Shown one piece after another: positions 36,523 through 56,654 of a stretch of 64,000 nt of DNA. Each line of letters starts with the position of its first letter. Within the stretch, counting starts at the first letter, position 1. Under the pieces are notes generated by a model. The model saw only the letters and a program-made list of their open reading frames with translations. It did no database searches and had not been told where the DNA came from. The translations under genes were made by a program, and so were the position numbers. The DNA is from Mycoplasmatota bacterium (GTDB lineage: Bacteria; Bacillota_I; Bacilli_A; Haloplasmatales; Haloplasmataceae), in assembly GCA_018394295.1 (NCBI GenBank), contig CP074573.1:744001-808000 (forward strand), written 5' to 3'.

Positions 36523-38814
36523 ATGTCAAACAAAGTAATCGGTAAGAGTGTTAGTAGGCTTGATGCGTTAAGTAAGGTGACTGGTAAAGCGAAATACGCC
36601 GATGATTATTTTGAACGTGACATGCTAGTGGGGAAAGTATTAAGAAGCCCCCATGCTCATGCCATAATTAAAAATATTGATGTAAGTAAGGCAAAGGAAT
36701 TAGCAGGTGTTGAGGCAGTTATTACACATAAAGATTTACCTAAAATTAAGTTCGCAACAGCAGGTCATCCTTGGTCATTAGATGAAAATCATAGAGATGT
36801 GGAGGATAGACTAATTTTAACAGATAAGGCGCGTCACGTTGGGGATAGTATTGCTGCAGTTGTCGCTATTAATCCGTTAATAGCGGAGAAAGCACTAAAA
36901 TTAATTGAAGTCGAGTATGAAGTACTCCCTCATATTCTTGACCCAGAGAAAGCAATGGAGGAAGGTGCACCAGTAATACATGAGGAAAAACCAAATAATA
37001 TCATCAGTTCTTTTAGTCAAGAATACGGTGATGTTGATTATGATTTTCAAAATGCATCATATATTTTTGATGGTATCTATGAAACAAGTATTGTTCAGCA
37101 TTGTCATTTAGAAAACCATAGTGCCTATGCCTATAAGGATACTGATGGTCGTATTGTAATTGTTACTTCAACTCAAATTCCACATATTGTTAGAAGAATC
37201 GTAAGTCAAGCTTTGGGTATTTCATGGGGGAATGTAAGAGTCATTAAACCGTATATTGGTGGAGGATTTGGAAATAAACAAGATGTTGTTATTGAACCCT
37301 TAACTGTAGCCATGTCATTAGCTGTAAATGGAAGGCCTGTACGATATGCATTAACTCGTGAAGAATGTTTTATTGGGACAAGAACGCGACATGCGATAAA
37401 ATTCTATTTCAAGACAGCATTATCAAAAGAGAATAAATTAAAAGCAATAAAGATTAAGGCAATTTCAAATAATGGTGCCTATGCTTCTCATGGACATTCG
37501 ATTATTATGAGTGCTAGCAGTAAATTTAGACCATTATATAATTTTAAATCAGTTAAGGTAGAGCCAAAAACAGTGTATACAAATTTACCGACAGCAGGTG
37601 CTATGCGAGCATATGGTGTACCACAAATCTTTTTTGCCTTAGAAAGTCACTTAGATGATATCGCAAGAAAACTTAACTTAGATCCAATTGAACTTAGAAA
37701 GCAAAATTTAATTAGTGTAGGTCATGTGGATCCACTTACAAATATTACAGTTCGTTCATGTGGTATTCGAGAATGTATTCAAAAAGGAAAAGAATTAATA
37801 AAATGGGATGAGAAGAAAAAACAATATCAAAATCAAGAAGGAGAAGTAAAAAAAGGTTTAGGGATGGCTTGTTTTAGTTATTTTTCTGGCACACACCCTG
37901 TTGGTTTAGAACTTTCTGGTGCAAGAATAATTATGAATCAAGATGGTTCCATCCAACTACAAGTTGGTGCAACAGAAATTGGACAAGGAAGTGATACAGT
38001 TTTTGCACAAATGGCAGCTGAAGTAATCGGAATACCAATTAGTATGGTTCGAATTGTTTCAACGCAAGATACGGATATTACACCTTTTGATACGGGAGCT
38101 TATGCCTCTAGACAAACCTATATAACAGGGGCTGCAGTGAAAAAGGCAGCTTTAGAAATTAGGGAGAAGGTATTAAACATAGCTAGTAAATCCTCTGGAC
38201 TAGCGAAAGATGCACTAGATATTGTCAACGCAAAGATAGTTGAGAAGAAATTAGGTACAATAATTTGTCCTTTACAAGATATTGCAATGGCATCTTATTA
38301 TGACAGAATGAGTGCTGAACCGATAACAAGTGATATATCTGTTAATGTAAGAACAAATTCAGTCGCATATGGTGTCACCTTTGTTGAAGTATCTGTAGAT
38401 ATGATAACAGGTAAAATTGAAATTCTTGAAATATATAATGTTCATGATTCAGGTGTTATTATTAATCCTAAACTTGCTGAAGGGCAGGTACAAGGTGGTG
38501 TGAGTATGGCTTTAGGTTACGCTTTGTCAGAAAAGATGCTTTTTGATGAGAAAACAGGTAGACCACTTAATCATAACTTGTTAGATTATAAATTACAGAC
38601 AATTTTAGATACACCTAAAATTGGTGTGGATTTTGTAGAGACTTACGAAGCAACCGGATCATTTGGCCAAAAATCATTAGGAGAAAACCCTACCATATCC
38701 CCTGCACCAGCCATACGTAATGCTGTTTTAGATGCAACAGGTGTAGCGTTTAATAAGATTCCGATGAATCCACAAGCAGTATTTGAAAAATTTAAAGATG
38801 AAGGATTACTATAA
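36523..38814 (+). CDS. xdhA: Xanthine dehydrogenase-family molybdenum subunit
   Basis: A 763-residue large subunit that binds the molybdopterin cofactor and hydroxylates a heteroaromatic ring, most likely xanthine or hypoxanthine given the neighbours. Domain I opens with SVSRLDALSKVTGKAKYADD. Cofactor-binding segments are IGGGFGNKQDVV, GAMRAYGVPQ, and GATEIGQGSDTVFAQM. The active-site glutamate is Glu721 in KSLGENPTISPAPA. The FAD and 2Fe-2S subunits follow at once, completing a three-subunit enzyme. GGGGAGG precedes the ATG. The exact substrate cannot be read from sequence. Confidence 0.9.
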   Translation: MSNKVIGKSVSRLDALSKVTGKAKYADDYFERDMLVGKVLRSPHAHAIIKNIDVSKAKELAGVEAVITHKDLPKIKFATAGHPWSLDENHRDVEDRLILTDKARHVGDSIAAVVAINPLIAEKALKLIEVEYEVLPHILDPEKAMEEGAPVIHEEKPNNIISSFSQEYGDVDYDFQNASYIFDGIYETSIVQHCHLENHSAYAYKDTDGRIVIVTSTQIPHIVRRIVSQALGISWGNVRVIKPYIGGGFGNKQDVVIEPLTVAMSLAVNGRPVRYALTREECFIGTRTRHAIKFYFKTALSKENKLKAIKIKAISNNGAYASHGHSIIMSASSKFRPLYNFKSVKVEPKTVYTNLPTAGAMRAYGVPQIFFALESHLDDIARKLNLDPIELRKQNLISVGHVDPLTNITVRSCGIRECIQKGKELIKWDEKKKQYQNQEGEVKKGLGMACFSYFSGTHPVGLELSGARIIMNQDGSIQLQVGATEIGQGSDTVFAQMAAEVIGIPISMVRIVSTQDTDITPFDTGAYASRQTYITGAAVKKAALEIREKVLNIASKSSGLAKDALDIVNAKIVEKKLGTIICPLQDIAMASYYDRMSAEPITSDISVNVRTNSVAYGVTFVEVSVDMITGKIEILEIYNVHDSGVIINPKLAEGQVQGGVSMALGYALSEKMLFDEKTGRPLNHNLLDYKLQTILDTPKIGVDFVETYEATGSFGQKSLGENPTISPAPAIRNAVLDATGVAFNKIPMNPQAVFEKFKDEGLL

Positions 38815-38828
38815 AGGAGAGGATAAAA

Positions 38829-39710
38829 ATGTTTAATATTAAAAATATACTAGAACCAACAACACTAAGTGAAGCATTGAAAATGTATGGTAGTAATCCT
38901 AATTTAAAGATTATTGCTGGTGGAAGCGATGTGTTAATTCATCTTCATCATGGAAAACTAAGTGATGTAGAATTATTAAGTCTTAGAAATATAAAAAGCT
39001 TAGAAACTATAAAAGAATTAGATGATGGGTCTATTTCAATCGGTCCAATGGCTACATTTTCACATATTTTCAAATCAGAAATTATAAATTGTAACTTACC
39101 AATATTAGCAGAGGCTGCAGTTTCTATGGGAGGACCTCAAATTAGAAATATTGCGACAATAGGTGGAAATATTTGTAATGGTGCGGTATCAGCAGATAGT
39201 GTCCCTGCATTGTTTTCATTAAATGCCATGCTAAAATTAGAAAGTCCAGATGGGGTTAGAATCGTTTCAATTCATGATTTTTATGAGGGACCAGGAAAAG
39301 TTAAATTGCACCATAAAGAAATATTAACTAATATTATTATCACAAAAGATAATTATCATGAGATGCATGGAAAATATATTAAATTTAGTAACAGAAAAGC
39401 CATGGACATTGCGATGCTAAGTGTTGCAGTATTATGCAAGATAAAGGAAAATAAATTCATTGATTTAAGAATCGCATTAGGTGTTAGTGCACCAACTCCA
39501 ATAAGATGTAAAGAAGCTGAAAAATTTGCGATAGGAAAATGTGTGGAAGAAGAAACTATTAAAGAAATAGGAAGTTATGCGTTAAAAGCAGCTAGCCCTA
39601 GAAATTCATGGCGTGGATCTAAAGCCTATAGAGAACACTTAATAAAAGTATTAACACAGCGTGCAATAAAAGAAGTAATTAAAGAATTGGAGGGGATCAA
39701 TATTGAGTGA
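38829..39710 (+). CDS. xdhB: Xanthine dehydrogenase-family FAD subunit
   Basis: A 293-residue FAD-binding subunit that passes electrons from the 2Fe-2S subunit to NAD+ or another acceptor. FAD motifs are IIAGGSDVLIHLHHG near residue 30 and RNIATIGGNICNGAVSADS near residue 105. The CO-dehydrogenase flavoprotein C-terminal domain follows (SAPTPIRCKEAE). The start is preceded by AAAGGAGAGG, 14 bases after the large subunit; the end overlaps the 2Fe-2S gene by eight bases. Confidence 0.92.
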   Translation: MFNIKNILEPTTLSEALKMYGSNPNLKIIAGGSDVLIHLHHGKLSDVELLSLRNIKSLETIKELDDGSISIGPMATFSHIFKSEIINCNLPILAEAAVSMGGPQIRNIATIGGNICNGAVSADSVPALFSLNAMLKLESPDGVRIVSIHDFYEGPGKVKLHHKEILTNIIITKDNYHEMHGKYIKFSNRKAMDIAMLSVAVLCKIKENKFIDLRIALGVSAPTPIRCKEAEKFAIGKCVEEETIKEIGSYALKAASPRNSWRGSKAYREHLIKVLTQRAIKEVIKELEGINIE

Positions 39711-40179
39711 AGCAAATATGAAGAAAATTAAGATGAATGTGAATGAAAAATTATATGAAATAGAAGTTGATATTAGAGAATCTTTACTTGATGTCCTACG
39801 AAATAAACTCCATTTTACAGGTGTAAAACAGGGATGTTCGGTAGGAGAATGTGGGGCATGTACTGTTTTAGTAGATGGCATTGCGGTTGATTCTTGTATA
39901 TATTTAGCTGTTTGGGCAGATGGTAAAACGATTAAAACGATAGAAGGTGTTGAAAAAGATGGAAAGATATCTAAAGTTCAACAAGCTTTTATTGATGAGG
40001 GCGCGATTCAATGTGGATTTTGTACGCCAGGACTTGTTATGACAACTACAGCACTAGTAGATAGTGATAAAGATTATAGTGATGAGGAAATTAAAAGAGA
40101 AATATCTGGGCATTTTTGTCGATGTACAGGTTATCAGAAAATATTTAATGCAGTTAAGAAATCATTAAAGGATAAATAA
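39703..40179 (+). CDS. xdhC: Xanthine dehydrogenase-family 2Fe-2S subunit
   Basis: A 158-residue subunit with two [2Fe-2S] clusters: a plant-ferredoxin type (GCSVGECGACTV, Cys45, 50, 53, 65) and the second in QCGFCTPG plus CRCTGYQK. It shuttles electrons from molybdenum to FAD. I use the TTG at 39703 because GGAGGGG lies seven bases before it; the ATG at 39718 is too far from that site. A terminator follows the stop, closing the xdhABC operon. Confidence 0.92.
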   Translation: MSEANMKKIKMNVNEKLYEIEVDIRESLLDVLRNKLHFTGVKQGCSVGECGACTVLVDGIAVDSCIYLAVWADGKTIKTIEGVEKDGKISKVQQAFIDEGAIQCGFCTPGLVMTTTALVDSDKDYSDEEIKREISGHFCRCTGYQKIFNAVKKSLKDK

Positions 40180-40327: not shown

Positions 40328-41524
40328 ATGAAGGAGTTAAAAAATTTAATTAGTCAATTAGAAAAATTAAATCATCAAAACATGTATAATAATGATTTTT
40401 TATTAACATGGGAAAAAACAGATGATGAAATTCAATCTGTATTTAAAGTAGCTGAAATACTACGTCATATGAGAGAAAATAATATTTCTCCGAAGATATT
40501 TGATAGTGGTTTAGGAATATCAGTATTCCGTGATAATTCTACAAGAACAAGATTTAGTTTTGCTAGTGCATGTAATTTATTAGGTTTAGAAGTTCAAGAC
40601 CTAGATGAAAAAAAATCGCAAATTGCTCATGGAGAAACGGTTCGTGAAACAGCTAATATGATTTCTTTTATGGCTGATGTGATTGGGATTAGAGATGATA
40701 TGTTTATTGGAAAAGGAAATGCTTATATGCGTAAGGTTTCGCAATCTGTACAGGAAGGTTTTGAGGATAATGTTTTAAATCAGCGACCTACCCTTGTTAA
40801 CTTGCAATGTGATATAGATCATCCAACTCAGACAATGGCAGATATGCTTCATTTAATTAATCATTTTGGAGGAGTTGAAAATCTTAAAGGGAAAAAGATA
40901 GCTATGACATGGGCTTACTCGCCATCATATGGGAAACCATTATCTGTTCCTCAAGGAGTTATAGGACTAATGACAAGAATGGGGATGGAGGTAACACTAG
41001 CACATCCAAAGGGATATGATTTAATGCCAGAAGTTGAAGAAATAGCGAAGAAAAATGCAGAATCTACTGGAGGAAAATTTATTAAAACAAATTCAATGAA
41101 AGAGGCTTTTGTTAATGCTGATATTGTATATCCAAAAAGTTGGGCGCCTTTTGCAGCGATGGAAAAAAGAACTAGATTAAATGGTGAAGGTAAGTTTGAT
41201 GAAATTAAGACACTTGAAAAAGAATTATTAGCACAAAATGCAAACCATTTAGATTGGGAATGTACCGAGGATTTAATGAAATGCACGAAAGATGGTCAAG
41301 CGTTATACTTACATTGCCTTCCTGCTGATATTACAGGTGTTAGTTGCGGACATGGAGAAGTAGCAGCATCGGTTTTTGAGCGTTATCGTACGCCATTATA
41401 TCGTCAAGCAGGTTATAAGCCATATATTATAGCTGCTATGATATTTTTAAGTAAGGTGAAAAATCCAATTAAAACAGCAGAAATGATTTTAGATAGAAAT
41501 AAAGAAAGATTTTCTGGAAAATAG
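40328..41524 (+). CDS. ygeW: YgeW, putative carbamoyltransferase of purine catabolism
   Basis: A 398-residue relative of aspartate and ornithine carbamoyltransferases. The carbamoyl phosphate motif is FRDNSTRTRFSF (residues 68-78), with HPTQTMADML and the later HCLPADITG. In the ygeW/ygfK/ssnA/hyuA gene set it is thought to act on a carbamoylated ring-opening product, releasing carbamoyl phosphate, but the reaction is not firmly established. I chose the ATG at 40328, six bases after GAGGTG; a GTG at 40319 overlaps that site. No carbamate kinase gene is in the window. Confidence 0.92.
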   Translation: MKELKNLISQLEKLNHQNMYNNDFLLTWEKTDDEIQSVFKVAEILRHMRENNISPKIFDSGLGISVFRDNSTRTRFSFASACNLLGLEVQDLDEKKSQIAHGETVRETANMISFMADVIGIRDDMFIGKGNAYMRKVSQSVQEGFEDNVLNQRPTLVNLQCDIDHPTQTMADMLHLINHFGGVENLKGKKIAMTWAYSPSYGKPLSVPQGVIGLMTRMGMEVTLAHPKGYDLMPEVEEIAKKNAESTGGKFIKTNSMKEAFVNADIVYPKSWAPFAAMEKRTRLNGEGKFDEIKTLEKELLAQNANHLDWECTEDLMKCTKDGQALYLHCLPADITGVSCGHGEVAASVFERYRTPLYRQAGYKPYIIAAMIFLSKVKNPIKTAEMILDRNKERFSGK

Positions 41525-44597: not shown

Positions 44598-45926
44598 ATG
44601 TTTTTAATTGGTAATGGTAAAATCATTACAAGAAATGAAAAAAATGAGATTATCGATAATGGTTGTATTGTGGTTGATGGAAATAAAATTATTGAAATTG
44701 GGATTACGACATCATTAAAAAGTAAGTATCAAAGAGCAAGATTTATTGATGCTAAAGGAAGACTTGTGATGCCGGGTTTTATTAATACACATATGCATTA
44801 TTATAGTACTTTCGCTAGAGGAATAGAAAATGATAGCCCTCCTGCTAAGAAGTTTTCAGATATACTAAAAGGATTATGGTGGCGTCTTGATAAAGTGTTA
44901 ACTTTAGAAGATGTATACTATAGTGCAATTGTACCGATGATTGATCAAGTTAAAAATGGTGTCACCACGGTTTTTGACCATCATGCCAGTCCTTATGCCA
45001 TTACCGGTAGTTTATTTAAAATTGCTGAAGCGGCAGAAAAAATTGGAATTCGTAGTAATTTATGTTATGAAACATCAGATAGAGATGGTGAAAAAATCTC
45101 AAATGAAGGTATTTTAGAAAATGTCGAATTTATTAATTACTGTAATACTAAAGATGATGATATGATAAAAGGAATGTTTGGACTTCATGCATCAATGACG
45201 ATTACAGATAAAACCTTAGATAAATGTTTAGATAAAATGGCATCATTAGATACTGGTTTTCATGTTCATACCGCAGAAGGCATTGAAGATGTAGAGGATG
45301 CAAAAAAGAAGTATGGAAAAGGCGTTGTTGAAAGATGGTATGAAAGTGGAGTCCTCTCAAATAAAACAATAGCGGTACATTGTATACATATTAGTGATAA
45401 AGAAATGGATATGTTAAAAGAAAAGAATGCCATGATTGTTCATAATCCAGAATCTAATATGGGGAATGCAGTTGGAGCTGCTTCAGTCTTAAAAATGTAT
45501 GAGAAAGGAATACTGTTAGGTCTTGGTACTGATGGATATACAACGGATATGATGGAATCATATAAGGTTGCTAATCTTATTCATAAACATACAAGTGGTG
45601 ATTCAACGGTCGCATGGCGTGAAATACCAGATATGTTATTTCACAATAATCGGAAAATTGCTGAAAGGTTCATTACTAATCCTGTGGGAATATTAAAAGA
45701 AGGGGCGCTTGCTGATATTATCATTGTAGACTATAATTCAGGAACCCCTATTAATGAAAATAATATAGATGCACATTTATTGTTTGGTATAAATGGACGA
45801 CATGTTGATACAACGATAATTAATGGTAAAGTAATCATGGAAGAAAGAAAACTTACGACTATTGATGAAGAAAGGGTATTAATGAAAAGTCAAGAATTAG
45901 CTAGAAAAGTTTGGGGACGTTTTTAA
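44598..45926 (+). CDS. ssnA: SsnA, amidohydrolase of purine catabolism
   Basis: A 442-residue metal-dependent amidohydrolase, the same length as E. coli SsnA. Metal ligands are His65 and His67 in PGFINTHMHYYS, a histidine in GFHVHTAEG, another in IAVHCIH and an aspartate in LGLGTDGYTTD. SsnA is one of the genes needed for anaerobic uric acid breakdown in gut bacteria and probably opens or deaminates a reduced purine ring; the exact step is not settled. AGGGAGGG precedes the ATG, 12 bases after ygfK. Confidence 0.92.
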   Translation: MFLIGNGKIITRNEKNEIIDNGCIVVDGNKIIEIGITTSLKSKYQRARFIDAKGRLVMPGFINTHMHYYSTFARGIENDSPPAKKFSDILKGLWWRLDKVLTLEDVYYSAIVPMIDQVKNGVTTVFDHHASPYAITGSLFKIAEAAEKIGIRSNLCYETSDRDGEKISNEGILENVEFINYCNTKDDDMIKGMFGLHASMTITDKTLDKCLDKMASLDTGFHVHTAEGIEDVEDAKKKYGKGVVERWYESGVLSNKTIAVHCIHISDKEMDMLKEKNAMIVHNPESNMGNAVGAASVLKMYEKGILLGLGTDGYTTDMMESYKVANLIHKHTSGDSTVAWREIPDMLFHNNRKIAERFITNPVGILKEGALADIIIVDYNSGTPINENNIDAHLLFGINGRHVDTTIINGKVIMEERKLTTIDEERVLMKSQELARKVWGRF

Positions 45927-45967: not shown

Positions 45968-46014
45968 TTAATTAACAAGAAGAATTTATACAACAGATGA
46001 AAAGAGGATGTACT

Positions 46015-46596
46015 ATGTCAAAAGATATAAATAAAAAAATACTTGATGCAACTTTAGAAGTTGTTGCAAGAGAAAAAATAAGTGGAACACGTATGCATTT
46101 GATCGCAAAAGAAGCCAAAATGAGTCAATCAAACTTACATTATTATTATCCAACAAAGAATGATTTATTAATGTCTTTAATGGATGAACTTCAGAAGCGA
46201 TTTTCTGAAAAACGCATAGAGTCAGTTGATTTAAAAAATAAATCTCTTGGTGATAATTTAAATGGATTATTCAAAGAAAAGCATGATGATATATTAAATC
46301 ATAAAAAGGTAGATTATGCTCAGTTTGATTTTTGGGTACAAGGTACTGTTAATCCTGAAATAAAGACAAAATTTCAAACAAGTTTTGATGAATGGAGACA
46401 TAATATTACAGCAGTTTTAAAAAAAGATGAATCGTATGAGAGATTAAATGCAAAATTTCAAGAGATGTTACCATATATCATGGTCTCACTAATGATGGGT
46501 GCATCAATGCAGTATCTTATTGATGAAGGTAAATTTAATTTAGATAGTTATTTTGAAGTAGGAGAAAAATTAATTTTGGCTTATCTTCAAGTTTAA
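46015..46596 (+). CDS. TetR-family transcriptional regulator, probable purine-locus regulator
   Basis: A 193-residue TetR protein. The DNA-binding domain is residues 1-50: ILDATLEVVAREKISGTRMH, then LIAKEAKMSQSNLHYYYPTK with the helix-turn-helix. The rest is a helical ligand-binding domain with no recognisable signature. It lies between ssnA and ygeY, inside the locus, which is where a local regulator is expected. The palindrome found before xdhA, ygeW and ygeY is the size of a TetR operator. The inducer could be a purine or a breakdown product; that is inference. The ATG at 46015 follows AGAGGAT. Confidence 0.88.
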   Translation: MSKDINKKILDATLEVVAREKISGTRMHLIAKEAKMSQSNLHYYYPTKNDLLMSLMDELQKRFSEKRIESVDLKNKSLGDNLNGLFKEKHDDILNHKKVDYAQFDFWVQGTVNPEIKTKFQTSFDEWRHNITAVLKKDESYERLNAKFQEMLPYIMVSLMMGASMQYLIDEGKFNLDSYFEVGEKLILAYLQV

Positions 46597-46656
46597 ATCT
46601 ACAGAAGATTGAATAGTATTGGTGATTATCAAGGAGTTAATTTGGTGGTGATTCAA

Positions 46657-47235
46657 ATGGTTAATGCCATTATAATGGCTTCAGGTTTAAGTTTACGCAT
46701 GGGAACAAATAAGCTGTTACTACCTTTTAAAGGAAAATATTTGATTGAACATGTTTTAGATAAAGTACAAATTTGTCCATTTTATCAAACTGTTCTTGTT
46801 TCTAATGATGAACAAATATTAGAGTTGGGTAGTGACAGAGGCTTTACTGTAATTAATAATAAACATGCAGAAGATGGACAAAGTAAATCCATTGAGCTAG
46901 GAATTCTCAATTGTTTAAAAGCAGATGGTTATGCATTTTTTACAGGTGACCAGCCCTTTTTAGATATTAATACTATCAATCGTTTACTAGCATCTTTTAA
47001 TCAAAATCAAGAGTGTATCATTGTTCCTTGTTATCAAAGTAGAAGTGGAACCCCCGTAATATTTCCTAAGAAATATAAAAATGATCTATTAGCTTTAAAG
47101 GGAGATAAGGGAGGAAAAAGTATCATTCAACAAAATTTTGATGTCGTAAAGTTTATTGAAGTTTCTGAAGCGTCTATCCTTTGGGATATTGATTCAAAAG
47201 AGGATTATCAAAAATTAATCCTTGGTAATAGATAA
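46657..47235 (+). CDS. mocA: MocA-type molybdenum cofactor nucleotidyltransferase
   Basis: A 192-residue nucleotidyltransferase, the length of E. coli MocA (YgfJ), that attaches CMP to molybdopterin, making the cofactor form used by xanthine dehydrogenase-type enzymes. The nucleotide-binding start is VNAIIMASGLSLRMGTNKLL, and the acidic motif is FFTGDQPFL. Three molybdenum hydroxylases are encoded around it, so the role fits. The ATG at 46657 follows GGTGGTG; longer readings from TTG at 46609 would add residues not expected in the family. It probably shares the tetR transcript. Confidence 0.88.
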   Translation: MVNAIIMASGLSLRMGTNKLLLPFKGKYLIEHVLDKVQICPFYQTVLVSNDEQILELGSDRGFTVINNKHAEDGQSKSIELGILNCLKADGYAFFTGDQPFLDINTINRLLASFNQNQECIIVPCYQSRSGTPVIFPKKYKNDLLALKGDKGGKSIIQQNFDVVKFIEVSEASILWDIDSKEDYQKLILGNR

Positions 47236-47357: not shown

Positions 47358-48569
47358 ATGTCTATAAATAAAGATGAAATTTTAAGATTAGCCGAGAAAT
47401 ATAAACCTGAGATGACTCGATTTTTAAGAGATATGATTTGTATACCGAGTGAAAGTTGTGGGGAAAAAGAGGTAGTTCTAAGAATTAAGGAGGAGATGGA
47501 AAAGGTTGGTTTTGATAAAGTTACCATCGATCCTATGGGGAATATATTAGGTTATATCGGTCAAGGTAGTCATGTGATAGCGATGGATGCTCATATTGAT
47601 ACGGTTGGAATTGGTGATAGAAACTTATGGGATAAAGATCCATATGACGGTTTTGAAAATGATGAAGTAGTCTATGGTAGAGGGGGTTCTGACCAAGAAG
47701 GTGGAATGGCTTCAATGGTTTATGCAGGGAAAATTATAAAAGAGTTAGGACTACTTGATGATTATACATTAATAGTGACTGGGACTGTTCAAGAAGAAGA
47801 CTGTGATGGTCTATGTTGGCAATATATTGTTAATGAAGATAAAATCAAACCAGAATTTGTAGTTATTACTGAACCAACTTCTTTAAATATTTATAGAGGT
47901 CATCGAGGAAGAATGGAAATTAAAGTAACAACGCCTGGTATAAGTTGTCATGGTTCAGCACCTGAAAGAGGGGACAATGCTATATTTAAAATGGCACCGA
48001 TATTAAATGAGTTAAAAGCTTTAAATGAGAATTTGCATTATGATCCATTCTTAGGAAAAGGAACATTAACTGTTTCAGAAATATTTTTTTCATCCCCATC
48101 AAGATGTGCTGTAGCTGATCAATGTAGTATATCGGTAGATAGAAGATTAACAAACGGAGAAACTTGGGAAAAAGCCATTCAAGAGATTAAGAATTTACCA
48201 GCTGTTAAAGCTGCGAATGCAGTTGTTGAAATGTATACTTACGAAAGACCATCTTATACAGGTCTTGTTTATCCAACTGAGTGTTTTTTTCCAACATGGG
48301 TATTACCTGAAGAACATATCGCTTGTCAAACCCTTGTCAACTGTTATGAAGAGTTATTTAAAAAAGAACCTAAGGTTGATAAATGGACTTTCTCAACAAA
48401 TGCAGTATCTATTATGGGGCGCTATGGGATTCCTTGTATTGGATTTGGACCAGGTCATGAAGATCAAGCCCATGCACCTAATGAGGTGACTTGGAAAGAT
48501 GAATTAGTTAAATGTGCAGCCATGTATGCCCTTATTCCAATTACTTATGTTAATAAATGTTCAAAATAA
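47358..48569 (+). CDS. ygeY: YgeY, M20-type metallohydrolase of purine catabolism
   Basis: A 403-residue M20-family hydrolase, exactly the length of E. coli YgeY. Metal and catalytic residues are His79 and Asp81 in MDAHIDTVG, Asp112 in [10 protein letters not shown], Glu146/Glu147 in VQEEDCDG, Glu in VITEPTSL and the final histidine in EDQAHAPNE. In the uric-acid gene set it is thought to hydrolyse an acyclic amide intermediate late in the pathway. TTGGAGGG precedes the ATG. It heads the long run of genes down to 61950. Confidence 0.92.
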
Positions 48570-48602: not shown

Positions 48603-49838
48603 ATGGATAAAATTAAACATTTAAAATGTTCAAAATGTGGGGCTACCTATAGTGAAGATGTTTTGTATCATTGTCCAAAATGTGGTACAGAAGGTACCTT
48701 AGATGTGGTTTTTGATTTAGGACTTGTGAAAAAAGTTATGATAAGAGAATATCTAAGTAATAATTCAAATCCTAATATCTGGCGATACTTCCCACTTCTT
48801 CCCTTAGAAAATTTAGTAGGTAAATCATCACTTACAATAGGTAATTCACCACTTTATAAATCAAAAAGATTAGAAGAATTATTAAATATAAAGAATATAT
48901 ATATTAAAGATGAGGGAAGAAATCCTACCGCTTCTTTAAAAGATAGAGCATCAGCTATCGGTGTTGCAAAAGCCATTGAGTTAAATAAAGATGTGATGTG
49001 CGCAGCCTCAACAGGGAATGCAGCCTCTTCTTTATCGGGTTTTGCTGCTTGTATGGGAATAAAAAATTATATATTTGTTCCTAAAACGATTCCTGAAGGA
49101 AAACTTGCACAATTATTAATTTTTGGTAGTCATGTTATATTAGTTGATGGGGATTATGATACAGCATTTGATTTTTGCTTAGAGGCAGTGGATCATTTCG
49201 GGTGGTACAACAGGAGTTGTGCAATTAATCCTTATCTAGTTGATGGTAAAAAGACAGTTGCTTTTGAACTACTAGAACAATTGGATTTTCAAGTACCAGA
49301 TAAGGTCATCATGTCAGTCGGAGATGGTTGTTCAATTTCAGGAGCTTGGAAGGGCTTCAAAGAATTTTATGAACTGGGTTTAATCGATAAATTACCGGTT
49401 ATGGTTTCAGTTCAAGCAGTAGGATCAAATCCAGTAAATCGGACATTTAGAAAGAAAACAAAACAATTTGATTATATACCACCAAAAACAATTGCTGATA
49501 GTATTTCAGTAGGGATTCCGAGAAATGGTTACAAAGCATTAAATACTTTAGAAGAAAGTAATGGATTGGCAGTTGATGTAAGTGATGAAGAAATATTACA
49601 TGCAATGAGAATCTTGGCTAGATATACAGGTGTATTTGGAGAACCAGCTGGTGTAACAGGTTTTGCTGGGCTTATGAAACTTGTAAATGAGGGTGTAATT
49701 AATCAAGATGAAAGTATTGCATTGATTATTTCTGGTAGTGGATTAAAAGATGTAAAATCAGCTCAAAGAGCAATTTCTAAACCAGATGCGATAAAACCGG
49801 ATTTAGATGTGCTTATTAATTTTCTTAATGATAAATAA
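48603..49838 (+). CDS. Threonine-synthase-like PLP enzyme with N-terminal zinc ribbon
   Basis: A 411-residue fold-type II PLP enzyme. A zinc ribbon opens it (Cys9, Cys12, Cys24, Cys27), followed by NPTASLKDRASAIG with the PLP lysine Lys113, STGNAASSLSGFAA for the substrate carboxylate, and SVGDGCSISGAWKG for the PLP phosphate. It resembles threonine synthase most, but no homoserine or threonine genes are nearby. It sits between ygeY and hyuA, where diaminopropionate ammonia-lyase (ygeX) is expected, so a beta-elimination on diaminopropionate or a similar amino acid is a reasonable guess. It is not YgeX itself. GAGAGGT precedes the ATG. Confidence 0.8.
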   Translation: MDKIKHLKCSKCGATYSEDVLYHCPKCGTEGTLDVVFDLGLVKKVMIREYLSNNSNPNIWRYFPLLPLENLVGKSSLTIGNSPLYKSKRLEELLNIKNIYIKDEGRNPTASLKDRASAIGVAKAIELNKDVMCAASTGNAASSLSGFAACMGIKNYIFVPKTIPEGKLAQLLIFGSHVILVDGDYDTAFDFCLEAVDHFGWYNRSCAINPYLVDGKKTVAFELLEQLDFQVPDKVIMSVGDGCSISGAWKGFKEFYELGLIDKLPVMVSVQAVGSNPVNRTFRKKTKQFDYIPPKTIADSISVGIPRNGYKALNTLEESNGLAVDVSDEEILHAMRILARYTGVFGEPAGVTGFAGLMKLVNEGVINQDESIALIISGSGLKDVKSAQRAISKPDAIKPDLDVLINFLNDK

Positions 49839-49879
49839 TCTATATAATATATCAATATAATTATAAGGGGAGATTTAAA

Positions 49880-51367
49880 GTGAAGAATTTAATCAACTTA
49901 GAAATTAATGAAGAACAGTTAAAGGTTGCTGTAGAACGAGCGAAAGAAAAAAATATTCTTATTCCAACTTTGGCACAAATGAAGGATCCTAAGCAGATAC
50001 CTGCTAAAGTTAAAGAAAAATTAAAGAAAACAGGATTATGGGAGATTGACTCCATAAATCTTTTCAGAATTTCTTGGAAAAATGAGCCAGTAAGTAAAGG
50101 TGGATTATATCAAGATTTACCTAATTATGTTGAAATACCACCTGAAATTTCTGGAGTGAAAGCAAGAATAATTGCGATGGCAGGGAAATACTTTCCGATA
50201 GGAGCACATAAGGTTGGGGCAAGTTTTGCTTGTTTAGTACCTCGTTTAGTGACTGGACAATTTAATCCTAAATATCATGAAGCCGTTTGGCCATCTACTG
50301 GGAATTATTGTCGAGGTGGCGCTTATAATTCTACGTTATTAGGATGTAAGTCGATTGCAATTTTACCTGAAAATATGAGTAAAGAGCGTTTCGAGTGGTT
50401 AAGTAAAGTTGCTGGAGAAGTCATTACGACCCCAGGTTGTGAAAGTAATGTAAAAGAAATATATGATAAAACCTGGGAACTTCGAGAAACAAGGGATAAT
50501 GTTGTGATATTTAATCAATTTGGAGAATTAGGTAATCATTTATGGCACTACGAAGTAACAGGAAATGCCATGGAAGAAATTATCAAAAAGGAAATAGGTT
50601 CAGATGGAAAAGTGGCTGGTGTTTGCTTGACATCTGGTTCTGCTGGTACTTTAGGAAGTGGAGATTATATTAAAAGTTTATATCCACAGGCTAAACTTGT
50701 TGTTGGTGAGGCTTTGCAATGTCCTACATTATATGTTAATGGTTTTGGTGATCATAGAATTGAAGGAATTGGAGATAAACATGTTCCTTGGATTCATAAT
50801 GTAAGAAATACGGATATGGTTGTTGCTATTGATGATTATGATAGTCTTGCATTATTCCGTTTATTAAATGAAGAAGCTGGACAGATTTATTTGAAGCAAC
50901 AAGGTGTTAAAGATGAAATCATTGAAAAACTTTCATGGGTAGGTATTTCTGGTGCTGCTAATATTATTACCGCAATTAAATTTGCGAAATACTATGAACT
51001 AACTGAAAATGATATTATTATGACTGTTTTAACAGATTCTAGTGAAATGTATCAATCAAGGTTAAAAGAAATGGAAGTTGAAAGAGGTAGAAAATACGAA
51101 ATAATGGATGCAGCAATTGATCATCATCGAAGTGTTTTAGGTCTTCGAACAGATAGTATGGAAGAGTTAACATATCTAAGTAAGAAACGCATTCATAATC
51201 TTAAGTATTATACATGGATTGAACAACAAAAGTATGATGTTGAAGAGTTAAATGCACAGTGGTATGATTATGACAATTATTGGGGTAGATTACATCAAAT
51301 GGGAAAAGAATTTGATGAATTAATTGAAGCATTTAATGAAAGAACGGGTTTATCAAAAGGTCTTTAA
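49880..51367 (+). CDS. PLP-dependent enzyme, fold type II, uncertain reaction
   Basis: A 495-residue PLP enzyme related to the tryptophan synthase beta/cysteine synthase fold but larger. The likely PLP lysine is Lys111 in PIGAHKVGASFA. Other fold features are WPSTGNYCRGGAYNS and LTSGSAGTLGSGDYI for the phosphate. The last 100 residues are hydrophilic, with many Tyr and Trp, and fall outside the usual fold. Sequence does not match YgeX, which is about 400 residues with a different lysine region. With its neighbour at 48603 it may do the final C-N cleavage of purine catabolism. It starts with GTG after GGGGAG. Confidence 0.78.
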   Translation: MKNLINLEINEEQLKVAVERAKEKNILIPTLAQMKDPKQIPAKVKEKLKKTGLWEIDSINLFRISWKNEPVSKGGLYQDLPNYVEIPPEISGVKARIIAMAGKYFPIGAHKVGASFACLVPRLVTGQFNPKYHEAVWPSTGNYCRGGAYNSTLLGCKSIAILPENMSKERFEWLSKVAGEVITTPGCESNVKEIYDKTWELRETRDNVVIFNQFGELGNHLWHYEVTGNAMEEIIKKEIGSDGKVAGVCLTSGSAGTLGSGDYIKSLYPQAKLVVGEALQCPTLYVNGFGDHRIEGIGDKHVPWIHNVRNTDMVVAIDDYDSLALFRLLNEEAGQIYLKQQGVKDEIIEKLSWVGISGAANIITAIKFAKYYELTENDIIMTVLTDSSEMYQSRLKEMEVERGRKYEIMDAAIDHHRSVLGLRTDSMEELTYLSKKRIHNLKYYTWIEQQKYDVEELNAQWYDYDNYWGRLHQMGKEFDELIEAFNERTGLSKGL

Positions 51368-51383: not shown

Positions 51384-52781
51384 ATGGGGATAATTTTAAA
51401 AGGTGGTTTAATAATCACAGAAAAAGAATCTATTGATTCTGATATTAGAATTGATGGAGAAAAGATTGTTTCTATTGGACAGGATTTATATCAAAGTGGA
51501 GATGAAATTATTGATGTGAAAGGGTGTTATGTTTTACCTGGAGGAATCGATACTCATACCCATTTTGATTTAGATGTAGGTTCAACCTTAACAGCTGATA
51601 ATTTTATCAGTGGAACAAAAGCAGCTATTATTGGTGGGACAACAACAATCTTAGATTATGCTACCCAAAATAAGGGTGAATCATTAAAAATAGCTTTAAA
51701 AAATCAGTTTAGTAAAACAACAAATGGATGTTTTTGCGATTTTGGTTTTCATATGGGAATCACTGATTGGAATGATGATGTCTCAGAAGAAATAAGTGCG
51801 ATGATTGAAGCGGGTGTTACTTCATTTAAGTTATATATGGCGTATAAAAATATCCTTCAGGTAGATGATGGTGTGATATATAAGGCACTGAAAAGATGTA
51901 ATGATGTAAAAGGCTTAATCTGTTTTCATTGTGAAAATGGTGATATCATTGATGTATTAGTGGATGAAGCAAGAAAAAACAATCATCAAGCACCTATTTA
52001 TCATGCTTTAACAAGACCTAGTTCGTTAGAAAAAGAAGCAATCACAAGACTCCTACAAATAGCTGAAATAGTAGACATACCCGTAAATATTGTCCATCTT
52101 AGTTCTAAAGCAGGATTAGAGAGTATTATAGAAGCTAAAAAAAGAGGGGTAAAAGTATATGTTGAAACCTGTCCTCAATACCTTTTATTAGATGATTCTT
52201 TTTATGGTGGGAAAGAGGGAAGCGGTTTTGAAGGTGCTAAATATGTCATGAGTCCTCCGCTTAGAAAAGTCTCAGACCAATTGGCATTATGGGAGGCAAT
52301 AAGGGCTTCTGAGATTGATACAATTGGTACTGACCATTGTTCATTTAATTATAAAGGTCAAAAAGAGATTGGGTTAAATGATTTTAGTAAGATTCCAAAT
52401 GGTGCACCAGGAGTAGAACATCGAATGACATTAATGTATACATCTGGTGTTGTTGAGAAGAAAATTAATTTGAATCAATTTGTCGCACTGACATCAACGA
52501 ATGCTGCTAAATTGTTTGGACTATATCCGAATAAAGGAACCATTTCTGTGGGAAGTGATGCTGATATTGTCATTTGGGACCCAAACTTAATTACAGAAAT
52601 CACTGCCAAAAACCAAACTCAAAATGTGGATTATACACCATATGAAGGATTTAAACAAATAGGAAGACCAATACATGTGTTTTTAAGAGGAAACAAAGTT
52701 GTGATTAATACAAAATTGATAAATCCTAAACCTCTAGGTAAATATTTACATAGAAATACATATTTAGAGAGAGGGAATTAA
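51384..52781 (+). CDS. hyuA: HyuA, dihydropyrimidinase/hydantoinase-family amidohydrolase
   Basis: A 465-residue cyclic-amide hydrolase. Metal ligands are His58 and His60 in GGIDTHTHFDLD, carboxylated Lys149 in SFKLYMAYKN, histidines in CFHCENGDI and NIVHLSSKAG and Asp in IGTDHCSFN. In the uric-acid set, HyuA is thought to open a hydantoin- or dihydropyrimidine-like ring. AGGAGGG precedes the ATG, 16 bases after the previous gene. The next gene starts one base after its stop. Confidence 0.92.
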   Translation: MGIILKGGLIITEKESIDSDIRIDGEKIVSIGQDLYQSGDEIIDVKGCYVLPGGIDTHTHFDLDVGSTLTADNFISGTKAAIIGGTTTILDYATQNKGESLKIALKNQFSKTTNGCFCDFGFHMGITDWNDDVSEEISAMIEAGVTSFKLYMAYKNILQVDDGVIYKALKRCNDVKGLICFHCENGDIIDVLVDEARKNNHQAPIYHALTRPSSLEKEAITRLLQIAEIVDIPVNIVHLSSKAGLESIIEAKKRGVKVYVETCPQYLLLDDSFYGGKEGSGFEGAKYVMSPPLRKVSDQLALWEAIRASEIDTIGTDHCSFNYKGQKEIGLNDFSKIPNGAPGVEHRMTLMYTSGVVEKKINLNQFVALTSTNAAKLFGLYPNKGTISVGSDADIVIWDPNLITEITAKNQTQNVDYTPYEGFKQIGRPIHVFLRGNKVVINTKLINPKPLGKYLHRNTYLERGN

Positions 52782-52782
52782 A

Positions 52783-55338
52783 ATGTTTGAATTTAAATTA
52801 AATGGGAAAAAAATATCGATTGAAGAAGATATTAATTTTCTTGATTATCTGCGAGATTACGAAAATTTAACATCTGTAAAAAATGGTTGTAGTGAGGGAT
52901 CTTGTGGTGTATGTATGATTTTGGTCGATGGAAAAAAACTTAGATCTTGTTTATTGACAACTAAAAAAGTTAGTGGGAAATCTATATTAACTATTGAAGG
53001 ATTATCTTTATTTGAAAAAGAGGTTTATAGTTATTCTTTTTCTAAAGCAGGCGCAGTTCAATGCGGTTTTTGCACACCAGGGATGATTATTAGTGCGAAA
53101 TCTTTATTAGATAGAACATTAAATCCAACAATAGAAGAAATACAGAAAGCCATTAAAGGTAATATTTGTCGTTGCACAGGTTACATAAAAATAATAGAGG
53201 CAATTAAATTAGCAGCAACTATCTTTAAAACAGGGAAATTACTGGTTGAAGATAATTATCAAGGGAAAATCGGAGAAAGTATTCCTAGAATTGATGGAAA
53301 AGAAAAAATACTTGGTCATGCTGAATATGTAGATGATATGAAAGTTGAGGGTATGATATATGGATCTGCTTTAAGAAGTCAATACCCAAGAGCCTTGGTG
53401 AAAAAAATAGATGTAAGTAAAGCATTAAAACATCCTGAAGTAGAAGCTATATTAACCGCAAAAGATATTCCAGGTAAAAGATTACTTGGTCATCTAGTGA
53501 AAGATTGGCCTGCGTTAATCGCTGAAGGTGAAATAACAAGATATGTTGGAGATGCTCTTGTACTAGTTGCTGCTAAAAGCAAAAATGCTTTACATGAGAT
53601 AATAAATTCAATTCAGGTTGAATATGAAATATTAAACCCAGTGAGTTGTCCATCTGAGGCCATGAAAGACAATGCACCGAAAATACATTCAGATGGAAAT
53701 ATACTACGGGTTGAAAGAGTCAATAGAGGAAATGTTGATGAAGCAATTAACAAATCCAAATATGTTGTGACAAATACTTATTATACACCATTTACAGAAC
53801 ATGCCTTTTTAGAACCAGAAAGTGCATTAGGTATCTATGATAATGATGCTGTTACTATCTTCACTGGTTCACAAAGCGTTTATGATGAACAAAGAGAAAT
53901 TGCTGACCTATTGGGGTTACCTAAAGATAAAGTTAGAACAATCAGTAAATATGTCGGAGGCGCTTTTGGTGGCAAAGAAGATATGTGTGTTCAACATCAT
54001 GCTGCCCTTTTAGCATGGGCTTGTAAAAAACCAGTAAAAATAACTTTAAGTCGTAAAGAGAGTTTGATGATTCACCCTAAACGACATGCGATGGAAATTA
54101 AAGTGACTACCGCCTGTGATGAATTTGGAAATATTACAGCTTTTAAGGGAAAGATAATTGCTGATACTGGTGCTTATGCTTCATTAGGTGGACCCGTTCT
54201 CCAAAGAGCTTGTACACATGCGGCAGGTCCTTATAGATGTCAGAATGTAGAGATAGAAGGGACAGCTGTTTATACAAATAATCCACCAGGAGGTGCATTT
54301 AGAGGATTTGGGGTAACACAATCTGTTTTTGCATCAGAATGTAATTTGAACCTTCTTGCGGAAAAAGTCGGAATAACCCCTTGGGAAATAAGATTTAAAA
54401 ATGCGATAGAACCAGGACAAGTGCTTCCTAATGGACAGATTGCTGATAAAGCAACCGCGATAAAGGAAACGTTACTCGCTGTAAAAGCTGAATATGAAAA
54501 TAATCCCTATTCAGGTATTGCTTGTGCAATGAAAAATTCTGGGCTAGGGGTAGGTGTTCCTGATACTGGAAGATGTAAATTAATGATACAAGGTGGTTTT
54601 GTTCATGTTAGAACAAGTGCTGCTCGAGTTGGTCAGGGATTAGCGACAATTGCGATGCAAATCGTTTGTGAAACCACAGGTTTACAACCAGAATTAATTA
54701 AGATTGATGCACCTGATACCTGGCAAACACCTGATTCTGGTACCTCAACTGCTTCAAGACAGACTTTATTTACAGGGGAAGCTGTACGAATTGCTTCATT
54801 AAAATTAAAAGACCAATTATTAAAACATTCAATAATTGAATTAGAATCAAAAACATTTTATGGAGAATATCAAGCGATTACAGATCCAATCAACTCGAAT
54901 AAAGAAAATCCAATCAGTCATGTAACGTATGGATACGCTAGTCAGGTGGTTATACTAGATGAAACTGGTAAGTTGAAAAAAGTAATTGCTGCACATGATG
55001 TTGGAAAAGCAATCAATCCAATTAGTGTGGAAGGACAAATTGAAGGTGGGGTTGTTATGGGATTAGGATATGCCTTAACTGAGGATTACCCACTTAAAAA
55101 GTCTGTCCCTACTGCTAAATTTGGTACATTAGGGTTATTTAGAGCAACAGATATTCCAGAAATAAAGCCAATAATTGTTGGGAAAAACCCATTAGATTTG
55201 GCTTATGGTGCAAAAGGAATTGGTGAGATAACAACCATTCCAACAGCTCCTGCAGTCCAAGGTGCTTATTATCAGCTAGATAGTAAGTTTAGAAAAAAAC
55301 TACCACTTGAAGAAACATATTATAGACATAAAAAATAA
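52783..55338 (+). CDS. xdhD: XdhD-type molybdenum hydroxylase, 2Fe-2S and molybdenum domains fused
   Basis: An 851-residue fusion. Residues 1-150 carry two [2Fe-2S] clusters (Cys36, 41, 44, 56 in GCSEGSCGVCM and beyond; then QCGFCTPG and CRCTGYIK). The rest is a molybdenum domain with GGAFGGKEDM, GGAFRGFGVTQ and the active-site Glu815 in AKGIGEITT. No FAD domain is present. Length and layout match the family called selenium-dependent xanthine dehydrogenase and E. coli XdhD, named for hypoxanthine oxidation. No selenium-related gene is in the window, so selenium use is unproven. It starts one base after hyuA. Confidence 0.9.
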   Translation: MFEFKLNGKKISIEEDINFLDYLRDYENLTSVKNGCSEGSCGVCMILVDGKKLRSCLLTTKKVSGKSILTIEGLSLFEKEVYSYSFSKAGAVQCGFCTPGMIISAKSLLDRTLNPTIEEIQKAIKGNICRCTGYIKIIEAIKLAATIFKTGKLLVEDNYQGKIGESIPRIDGKEKILGHAEYVDDMKVEGMIYGSALRSQYPRALVKKIDVSKALKHPEVEAILTAKDIPGKRLLGHLVKDWPALIAEGEITRYVGDALVLVAAKSKNALHEIINSIQVEYEILNPVSCPSEAMKDNAPKIHSDGNILRVERVNRGNVDEAINKSKYVVTNTYYTPFTEHAFLEPESALGIYDNDAVTIFTGSQSVYDEQREIADLLGLPKDKVRTISKYVGGAFGGKEDMCVQHHAALLAWACKKPVKITLSRKESLMIHPKRHAMEIKVTTACDEFGNITAFKGKIIADTGAYASLGGPVLQRACTHAAGPYRCQNVEIEGTAVYTNNPPGGAFRGFGVTQSVFASECNLNLLAEKVGITPWEIRFKNAIEPGQVLPNGQIADKATAIKETLLAVKAEYENNPYSGIACAMKNSGLGVGVPDTGRCKLMIQGGFVHVRTSAARVGQGLATIAMQIVCETTGLQPELIKIDAPDTWQTPDSGTSTASRQTLFTGEAVRIASLKLKDQLLKHSIIELESKTFYGEYQAITDPINSNKENPISHVTYGYASQVVILDETGKLKKVIAAHDVGKAINPISVEGQIEGGVVMGLGYALTEDYPLKKSVPTAKFGTLGLFRATDIPEIKPIIVGKNPLDLAYGAKGIGEITTIPTAPAVQGAYYQLDSKFRKKLPLEETYYRHKK

Positions 55339-55373
55339 TCTGAACATATTTTTAGTTGATTGTGAGGGATAAG

Positions 55374-56654
55374 ATGTTAGATTTATATGCGGTGAAGGGG
55401 AATATTATTTTTTCAAAGACCTTTGGGGAATATGAAATCATTAAAAATGGATATATAGTTGTATCAGGAAAGGTAGTCCAAGGTGTTTATCAGGAACTTG
55501 ATGAAAATTTAAAAGATATTAAAGTATTTGATTATGGAGATCATTTAATTATTCCTGGATTTGTTGATTTACATGTTCATGCACCACAATTTGCTAATTT
55601 AGGATTAGGACTTGATAAGGAATTAATGCCATGGCTTAAGGCATATACTTTTCCTGAAGAGGCTAAGTATTGTGATGTAAATTATGCTAAAAAAGTATAT
55701 TCCTCTTTTATTAAAGAATTGTGGAAACATGGCACAACAAGAGCTTGTGTTTTTGGAACAATTCATAAAAATGCAACTAAGTTATTAATGGATTTATTTG
55801 CTCAATCAGGGTTAGGGGCATATGTAGGAAAGGTGAATATGAACAGAAATTCACCTGATTATTTAACAGAAACAACAGAGGATTCCATTCGGGATACGAT
55901 TGAAATATTAGATGAATATAAGGATAAATATGAACTTGTGAAACCAATTATAACTCCTAGATTTATACCAACCTGTAGTATAGATTTATTAAAAAGTCTA
56001 GGGAAGTTAGCCAAGGAATACAATGTTCCTGTACAGTCTCACTTATCTGAAAATTATGGTGAAATTAGTTTTGTTAGAGAACTACATCCTGATTCTCGTA
56101 ACTATGCTAGTTTATATGATGAAGCTGGATTATTTGGTGATGTACCAACCATTATGGCTCACTGTATCTTAGTTGAAGAAGAAGAGATAGCCCTTATGGT
56201 TAAAAAACAGGTTTTTATTGCACATAGTCCTAATTCTAACTGTAATTTAGCAAGTGGATTAGCACCTATTAGAAGGTTGGTATCAAGAGGAGCTCTTGTA
56301 GGACTTGGAAGTGATGTTTCAGGAGGACATAGTTTATCGATGATGAATGTAATGATTAATACTGCTCAAGTATCTAATATTAAGTGGCTTGAAACAAATC
56401 GAGTTGATAAGCCTTTAAATACTGCTGAGATATTTTTTTTAGCAACCAAAGGTGGAGGAAAATTCTTTGGTCAAGTAGGTAGTTTTGAACCAGGTTATAC
56501 CTTTGATGCCTTAATCATAGATGACAGCAGTTTACCAATTTTTAAATCACTATCAATAGAAGAAAGATTACAAAAATTTATATTTACAGGCGATGATAGA
56601 AATATAAAAGAAAGATATGTTGCTGGGAGAAGAGTAGAAGAGCCAAAATGTTAA
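55374..56654 (+). CDS. guaD: Guanine deaminase
   Basis: A 426-residue zinc amidohydrolase that turns guanine into xanthine and ammonia. The metal site is PGFVDLHVHAPQFANLG (His67, His69, and Gln72 typical of guanine deaminase), with SHLSEN and a later histidine in AHCILVEE, and VGLGSDVSGG. It feeds guanine into the xanthine dehydrogenases of the same operon. The ATG at 55374 follows GAGGGA; an upstream TTG at 55356 is less likely. Confidence 0.93.
   Translation: MLDLYAVKGNIIFSKTFGEYEIIKNGYIVVSGKVVQGVYQELDENLKDIKVFDYGDHLIIPGFVDLHVHAPQFANLGLGLDKELMPWLKAYTFPEEAKYCDVNYAKKVYSSFIKELWKHGTTRACVFGTIHKNATKLLMDLFAQSGLGAYVGKVNMNRNSPDYLTETTEDSIRDTIEILDEYKDKYELVKPIITPRFIPTCSIDLLKSLGKLAKEYNVPVQSHLSENYGEISFVRELHPDSRNYASLYDEAGLFGDVPTIMAHCILVEEEEIALMVKKQVFIAHSPNSNCNLASGLAPIRRLVSRGALVGLGSDVSGGHSLSMMNVMINTAQVSNIKWLETNRVDKPLNTAEIFFLATKGGGKFFGQVGSFEPGYTFDALIIDDSSLPIFKSLSIEERLQKFIFTGDDRNIKERYVAGRRVEEPKC

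Follow-up and report, generated by a model that had tools for sequence, protein, structure and literature searches.

We have studied a stretch of 64,000 nt from the genome of a Mycoplasmatota bacterium (G000:C1:744001–808000; the whole genome has 3.29 Mb in two contigs), which we will call the window and whose own numbering is used below. It contains a long cluster of genes for purine breakdown, all of them co-directional, from which the last enzyme of the reductive uric acid pathway, YgeX, is missing. In its block we find two other enzymes that use pyridoxal phosphate (PLP): P1 (48603..49838, + strand, start ATG, 411 amino acids) and P2 (49880..51367, + strand, start GTG, 495 amino acids). 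It is likely that this pair replaces YgeX in this organism. A sequence-only reading of the window had already proposed, in guarded terms, that the pair stands in for YgeX in an undescribed branch of the pathway; the absence of YgeX, the linkage of the genes and their co-occurrence in other genomes support this proposal.

In the reductive pathway uric acid is converted by XdhD to yanthine, which is reduced by YgfK; the ring is then opened by SsnA and HyuA (PMC12507026). YgeW and YgeY take off two ureido groups to leave 2,3-diaminopropionate, which YgeX turns into pyruvate and ammonia. The delivery of diaminopropionate has been established with the enzymes of Escherichia coli and C. difficile, and YgeX is equally active on its L- and D-forms (PMC12507026). 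The published variants concern YgfK/UacX, YgeW/UacY and an F420 enzyme: none is found at the YgeX step (PMC12507026; PMC12990295). In a comment Percudani counts the stereochemistry, and the order in which the ureido groups are cleaved, among the questions still open (PMC12990295). In the open literature searched we have found no publication that describes another route for the YgeX step. The survey of Li et al. 2025 scored "YgeX" by PF00291 alone (PMC12507026), so that P1 or P2 would be counted as YgeX and a replacement could not be detected. The P1–P2 pair is probably a real replacement of YgeX, conserved and placed at a step already known; it is not among the variants in the papers that can be searched.

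The two genes are tightly packed between ygeY (47358..48569, + strand), which codes for the M20 hydrolase that yields diaminopropionate by removal of the last ureido group (TIGR03526, 720.5 bits, cut-off 321.5), and hyuA (51384..52781, + strand), of the D-hydantoinase type (TIGR02033, 579.8 bits, cut-off 393). All four are on the same strand, with gaps of 33 bp between ygeY and P1, 41 bp between P1 and P2 and 16 bp between P2 and hyuA, and no terminator-like site was seen from ygeY through hyuA, around P1–P2. The sequence-only reading had recognized here two fold-type II PLP enzymes, one with a zinc ribbon and Lys113, the other with 495 residues and Lys111. Their open reading frames, the PF00291 matches (230.6 bits for P1, 50.9 bits for P2) and the invariance of both lysines confirm it. 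It had also expected ygeX between ygeY and hyuA: the block is the same, but in E. coli ygeX sits between ygeW and ygeY, in the order ygeW-ygeX-ygeY-hyuA...ygfK-ssnA-ygfM-xdhD. The genes common to reductive uric acid clusters, namely an XdhD-type hydroxylase, ygfK, ssnA, hyuA, ygeW and ygeY (PMC12507026; PMC12990295), are also found here; the difference is the absence of ygeX and the presence of the P1–P2 pair. Five of them, ygeW, ygfK, ssnA, ygeY and hyuA, are each above the cut-off of their curated family, which places the cluster in the pathway.

Nowhere in the genome is there a match to TIGR03528, the YgeX family, above 41 bits (cut-off 532). P1 itself reaches 20.8 bits and P2 is unmatched, in agreement with the early observation that neither resembles YgeX. 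The complete list of PF00291 proteins in the genome has seven members: CysK, P1, OrtB, TrpB, DsdA, ThrC and P2, of which CysK and TrpB were assigned by eye from their sequence. YgeX is not among them. A ygeX gene elsewhere in the genome, which would have spoken against the replacement, was looked for in both ways and is ruled out. Another enzyme outside the cluster might still degrade diaminopropionate, while P1 and P2 process a side product. A candidate is the D-serine ammonia-lyase DsdA, which is present (683 bits to PRK02991) and would be suited to the D product expected from a HyuA-type D-specificity. However its gene lies at position 2,640,000 of contig 1, unlinked to the cluster, and P1–P2 track the absence of YgeX over many genomes; we find this explanation very improbable.

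The co-occurrence was studied in a sample of 291 Clostridia-class genomes drawn irrespective of P1 and P2, with the centre G419 left out. The test set is formed by the 17 genomes which have YgeY at 600 bits or more. The seven without YgeX all have both P1 and P2 (7/7 each), while among the ten with YgeX there is no P1 (0/10) and only one P2 (1/10), a divergent one. This is the distribution that the sequence-only reading had predicted; it gives a Fisher p = 5e-5, a value not corrected for kinship. In a second sample of 40 genomes, picked for the presence of P2, 33 have YgeY over the cut-off. YgeX is absent from 23 of these 33, and P1 is present in 21 of the 23. Every genome found with P1 also has P2, whereas P2 occurs without P1. 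Both traits switch at least seven times along the YgeY tree; of the neighbours G577 and G485, for instance, the first has P1 and the second YgeX.

The order ygeY-P1-P2-hyuA is kept in four relatives of the same family, with 75–81% identity in P1 and P2: they are real, conserved genes. Three other families of the same class (f7, f12 and f22) have a divergent cluster, with P1 (44–48%), P2 (34–40%) and ygeY (about 70–75%) side by side. These clusters (L042–L049) belong to small genomes; their SsnA-like protein scores 300–370 bits, below the curated cut-off, ygeW is replaced by an ornithine-carbamoyltransferase-like gene and a dihydroorotate-dehydrogenase-like (UacX-like) gene is present. Family f3 belongs to this class too; there the neighbour of P2 (60%) is a true ygeX, which scores 473 bits with PRK08206 (cut-off 276) and takes the position expected for P1. 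One genome, G021, has ygeW, ygeY, P2 and ygeX twice (L038, L039); in the first copy P2-ygeX is divergent from ygeY-ygeW, with a regulator-like gene in between.

When GTDB genomes were scanned with a profile of P2, at least 593 matches were obtained, of which the best 80 belong to Bacillota, Synergistota, Chloroflexota, Spirochaetota, Myxococcota, Bipolaricaulota, Asgard archaea and others. Of 92 P2 loci, 54 have P1 on the same stretch and 41 have it adjacent to P2 (less than 300 bp apart and on the same strand), 24 with the order P1-P2 and 17 with P2-P1. When the two are not adjacent, the genes in between are mostly unrelated (glycosyltransferase, transposase-like, peptidase T-like), with the exception of serine hydroxymethyltransferase (SHMT) in Synergistaceae. 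The linkage of P1 and P2 to ygeY recurs across phyla, and in clusters with YgeX it is ygeX which occupies the block held elsewhere by P1–P2. A few purine clusters (L110, L073, L078 and L119) have P2 with neither P1 nor YgeX nearby. In one of them, L119, from a Clostridia metagenome-assembled genome, P2 precedes the L-serine dehydratase genes sdaB-sdaA, after which come yqeC-mocA-yqeB and, at a greater distance, glyA. In three Synergistaceae loci (L071, L076, L105) glyA is directly upstream of P2, and in L071 and L076 it lies between P1 and P2; the names of the sda and glyA genes come from reading their sequence. Around stand-alone P2 genes, in archaea, sulfate reducers and others, no common partner was found. 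In a deltaproteobacterial metagenome-assembled genome (L103) four genes in a row code for a UacX-like dehydrogenase, an M20 hydrolase, P2 and a TRAP transporter; this may be one more anaerobic cluster, for purines or pyrimidines, which ends with P2.

Turning to the proteins, P1 will be labelled threonine synthase by annotation pipelines, since it passes the cut-off of TIGR00260 (221.3 bits against 167.1) and its nearest fold is ThrC; with PRK08197 it falls short (292 bits, cut-off 303). Its predicted model, with a predicted local distance difference test (pLDDT) value of 92.8, fits ThrC 2zsj with a TM score of 0.93 over the target. It has Lys113, invariant in 48 aligned relatives, and the CxxC...CxxC arrangement of a zinc ribbon (Cys9, 12, 24 and 27). 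With the short type of threonine synthase (TIGR00260, PRK08197; 2zsj, 1uim) P1 shares the fold, the Lys and STGN motifs and about 35% identity. However 40 P1 sequences form a single clade (SH-aLRT 98), outside the ThrC clade (SH-aLRT 98). Furthermore, in 60 of 60 P1 sequences the positions T88, R160 and N188 of Thermus thermophilus ThrC have become Ala, Leu/Met/Thr and Asp, while the ThrC-type sequences of the same alignment retain Thr88, Arg160 and Asn188. These three residues are reported to bind the substrate phosphate (work on 1V7C). Judged by its sequence P1 is not a threonine synthase. The loss of a cationic site, with an acid gained, would be in keeping with a substrate that bears an amino group in place of the phosphate. 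Enzymes of the ThrC family are able to deaminate (PMC12172450).

One alternative is that P1 and P2 are an ordinary threonine synthase and cysteine synthase, placed in the cluster by chance. ThrC and CysK are indeed their nearest folds and P1 exceeds the TIGR00260 cut-off (221 against 167). But the genome already has a normal thrC-thrB locus and a normal CysK: elsewhere in it the classical order is found, with a homoserine-kinase-like gene after that of ThrC, so that P1 as the sole threonine synthase of the organism is ruled out. The ThrC-specific positions are changed in all 60 P1 sequences, P2 is far under the CysK cut-offs and the linkage with ygeY is repeated across phyla. A role in amino acid synthesis alone, which the sequence-only reading had named as an outcome that would overturn its proposal, is therefore unlikely, and a chance placement of two biosynthetic enzymes has hardly any probability for us.

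P2 is further from the named families. It scores 93.8 bits with TIGR01139 (CysK, cut-off 351) and 76.3 bits with TIGR01137 (CBS, cut-off 510), and its relatives are automatically named just "pyridoxal-phosphate dependent enzyme". The core of its predicted model (pLDDT 94.5) fits CysK and CBS at Z 33–38 over 288–327 residues. Outside this core there are helical extensions, roughly the first 40 and the last 75–90 residues; the C-terminal extension noticed in the sequence is thus accompanied by another one at the opposite end. Lys111 is invariant in 53 aligned relatives, and the motifs GxHK, PSTGN, GSxG and EGxGDK are kept in 53/53 aligned members. Among the fold matches listed for the P1 and P2 models there is no structure of a diaminopropionate ammonia-lyase, which has no weight either way. 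OrtB, a subunit of 2-amino-4-oxopentanoate thiolase, resembles P2 in its PLP fold II and its similar length, and both are found in this genome. However NF040741 gives no match with P2, and OrtB is a separate gene beside Ord (822 bits to NF040741): P2 as OrtB is ruled out. Genes for ornithine fermentation (2,4-diaminopentanoate dehydrogenase-like and OrtB) are found at about 1157000–1160000 of G000:C1 (L054).

An indication on the chemistry of P2 comes from Fn1055, an enzyme which makes L-serine out of cysteine: water takes the place of the beta substituent, with Asp232 as key residue (PMC12940168; PMC9865163). Both proteins have a CysK-type core and the motif HRIEGI(G/S)D, in which Asp299 of P2 (HRIEGIGD) aligns with Asp232, a column marked by the D232N structure 5b55. 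This Asp is present in 126 of 126 readable P2 sequences, and the CysK of the genome has Ala there. The differences from Fn1055 (5b53, 5z5c) are the extra helical segments at both ends of P2 and the sequence PSTGN instead of TSGN. The identity is only about 23% in the structural alignment.

This similarity can also be read in another way: P1 alone would substitute for YgeX, and P2 would do another job, for example as a cysteine or selenocysteine hydroxyl lyase which gives sulfide or selenide to the molybdenum hydroxylases. Fn1055, the closest characterised signature, is precisely a cysteine hydroxyl lyase, P1 excludes YgeX more sharply than P2 does (0/10 against 7/7), and the yqeC-mocA-yqeB genes found after P2-sdaAB in L119 are accessory genes of selenium-dependent molybdenum hydroxylases. 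Yet P2 is missing in nine of the ten YgeX-positive uricolytic genomes, which have the same kinds of hydroxylase; a supply of sulfur or selenium does not predict this, and we consider such a division rather unlikely.

YgeX and the pair are alike in their fold-type II, in their block beside ygeY/ygeW and in the expected substrate, diaminopropionate. They differ in profile and tree, in the number of proteins, one instead of two, and in their parts: a zinc ribbon in P1, a CysK core in P2. They also differ in the active site: both P1 and P2 have an invariant STGN motif, without the Asp found before GN in YgeX (TIGR03528; E. coli b2871). This Asp of the DGNHG motif, Asp120 in E. coli, enables YgeX to use the D-isomer.

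Our preferred reading is that the pair replaces YgeX and that in it the beta-amino group of diaminopropionate is the target of P2, an interpretation of the sequences towards which we lean slightly. By homology YgfK, SsnA, HyuA, YgeW and YgeY would deliver 2,3-diaminopropionate. Lys111 of P2 would form the external aldimine, and the beta-amino group would leave as ammonia to give aminoacrylate. At this point P2 most likely would add water and produce L-serine, as Fn1055 does from cysteine. P1, with its ThrC-derived fold and no site for a substrate phosphate, would then eliminate and deaminate serine or diaminopropionate to pyruvate and ammonia. SdaAB or SHMT may take the product of P2 instead of P1; elsewhere YgeX would do the whole step alone. 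From these features we infer both the substrate and how P1 and P2 share the work. More tentative is the serine route, together with its enzymatic definition, with P2 as a possible new diaminopropionate hydroxyl lyase that makes L-serine and P1 as a possible serine/diaminopropionate ammonia-lyase which evolved from threonine synthase. A model in which P2 acts before P1 would account for the combinations found: YgeX alone, P1 with P2, P2 with YgeX, all three together, P2 with other serine enzymes, and P1 never without P2.

Part of this distribution is also expected if the two proteins divide the isomers between them, P2 as a racemase or a D-specific diaminopropionate enzyme and P1 as an L-diaminopropionate ammonia-lyase, so that jointly they match YgeX. 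YgeX takes both L- and D-diaminopropionate (PMC12507026), P1 and P2 lack its acidic residue in the GN motif, serine racemase belongs to fold II, and P1 is never found without P2, which also accompanies YgeX. However a racemase alone could not finish the pathway in the purine clusters L110, L073, L078 and L119. It explains less because P2 is found there with no lyase in view; the serine genes near P2 and its Fn1055-type Asp point instead to a beta-replacement. We regard it as an unlikely explanation, though the most probable of the alternatives considered here.

Several observations weigh against the replacement of YgeX by the pair, with P2 acting on diaminopropionate. The serine genes near P2 come from perhaps two lineages only. 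A doubt is left on the stereochemistry, since HyuA is D-specific in type and both P1 and P2 lack the Asp of YgeX. Two genomes (G423 and G432) have YgeY and P2, but both P1 and YgeX are missing. P1, P2 and YgeX are found together in Desulfosporosinus, Paradesulfitobacterium, Flavonifractor and others, so the pair may work beside YgeX, or at a step other than its own. P2 is also present in organisms with no YgeY over the cut-off, Thorarchaeota and several metagenome-assembled genomes, and therefore its substrate may be broader. Finally, when the exclusion of P1/P2 and YgeX is tested with correction for kinship on the YgeY tree, there are six independent pairs with a median p of 0.5, a number of pairs which cannot reach significance. 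The association is strong by counts and plausible in its history, but it is not proven independent of kinship. A strict one-for-one swap of YgeX and P1–P2 is too simple, as some genomes hold all three.

The P2 family is wider than the uric acid pathway. P2-like proteins with about 40% identity, which keep the GIGDKH motif, are found on plasmids of Rhizobium sp. NXC24 (L230) and Bosea vaviloviae (L231), near TauE/SafE sulfite exporters and M20 hydrolases; Bosea has in addition RidA, a gamma-glutamyltransferase and a thiamine pyrophosphate enzyme. They may be lyases which free sulfite from a sulfonated amino acid. Motif and neighbours together suggest beta-substituted alanines, handled via aminoacrylate, as substrates of the wider family.

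The rest of the cluster is entirely on the + strand. It starts with a three-gene molybdenum hydroxylase of the xanthine dehydrogenase type, with Mo, FAD and Fe-S subunits (36523..40179), whose Mo subunit has 48% identity to E. coli XdhA. It is followed by ygeW, a knotted carbamoyltransferase (40328..41524; TIGR03316, 759.2 bits, cut-off 500), by ygfK, the reductase of yanthine (2,8-dioxopurine) according to PMC12507026 (41547..44585; TIGR03315, 1494 bits, cut-off 835), and by the ring-opening aminohydrolase ssnA (44598..45926; TIGR03314, 687.6 bits, cut-off 455.5). YgeW is expected to make carbamoyl phosphate, yet no homologue of the carbamate kinase gene yqeA is found in the window (1–64000); yqeA adjoins ygeW in many related clusters. 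Before ygeY there are an open reading frame for a TetR-type regulator (45997..46596), with 61–78% identity to those in the clusters of relatives, and mocA/ygfJ, a molybdenum cofactor cytidylyltransferase (46609..47235; TIGR03310, 196.7 bits, cut-off 186.45).

On the 3' side hyuA is followed by an XdhD-like hydroxylase with fused Fe-S and molybdopterin-binding parts (52783..55338), which adjoins hyuA in relatives too and, along 737 amino acids, is 29% identical to E. coli XdhA. Then come two genes for what we take to be upstream entry steps of purines, a guanine deaminase (guaD, 55356–56654) and an adenine deaminase (adeC, 56733–58415). Both names were assigned from the sequence rather than from a curated family. 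Homologues of the two recur in related clusters, and guaD is present in the E. coli cluster. The cluster continues with another hydroxylase, whose molybdopterin subunit is interrupted by an in-frame TAA and falls into two pieces (59743–60990 and 61003–61950); after the stop codon there is a ribosome-binding-like site with an ATG. Since the relative G002 (L036) has this split too, it is probably a conserved subunit in two pieces rather than an error.

The reductive uric acid pathway, which is relevant to gout and hyperuricaemia, was not worked out until 2025. Surveys which take ygeX as their marker, or PF00291 in its stead, will miss or misname the organisms with P1–P2. YgeX is missing with P1–P2 in place in this bacterium and in many anaerobes of several phyla, which suggests an ending of the pathway that has not been described. 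If our reading is true, a common alternative ending would gain its enzymes, and a function would be assigned to the P2 family, with its hundreds of members, and to its partner P1. If the serine route too is right, the carbon of uric acid would flow via serine in YgeX-less anaerobes of several phyla, either to glycine and one-carbon units through SHMT or to pyruvate through P1 or SdaAB.

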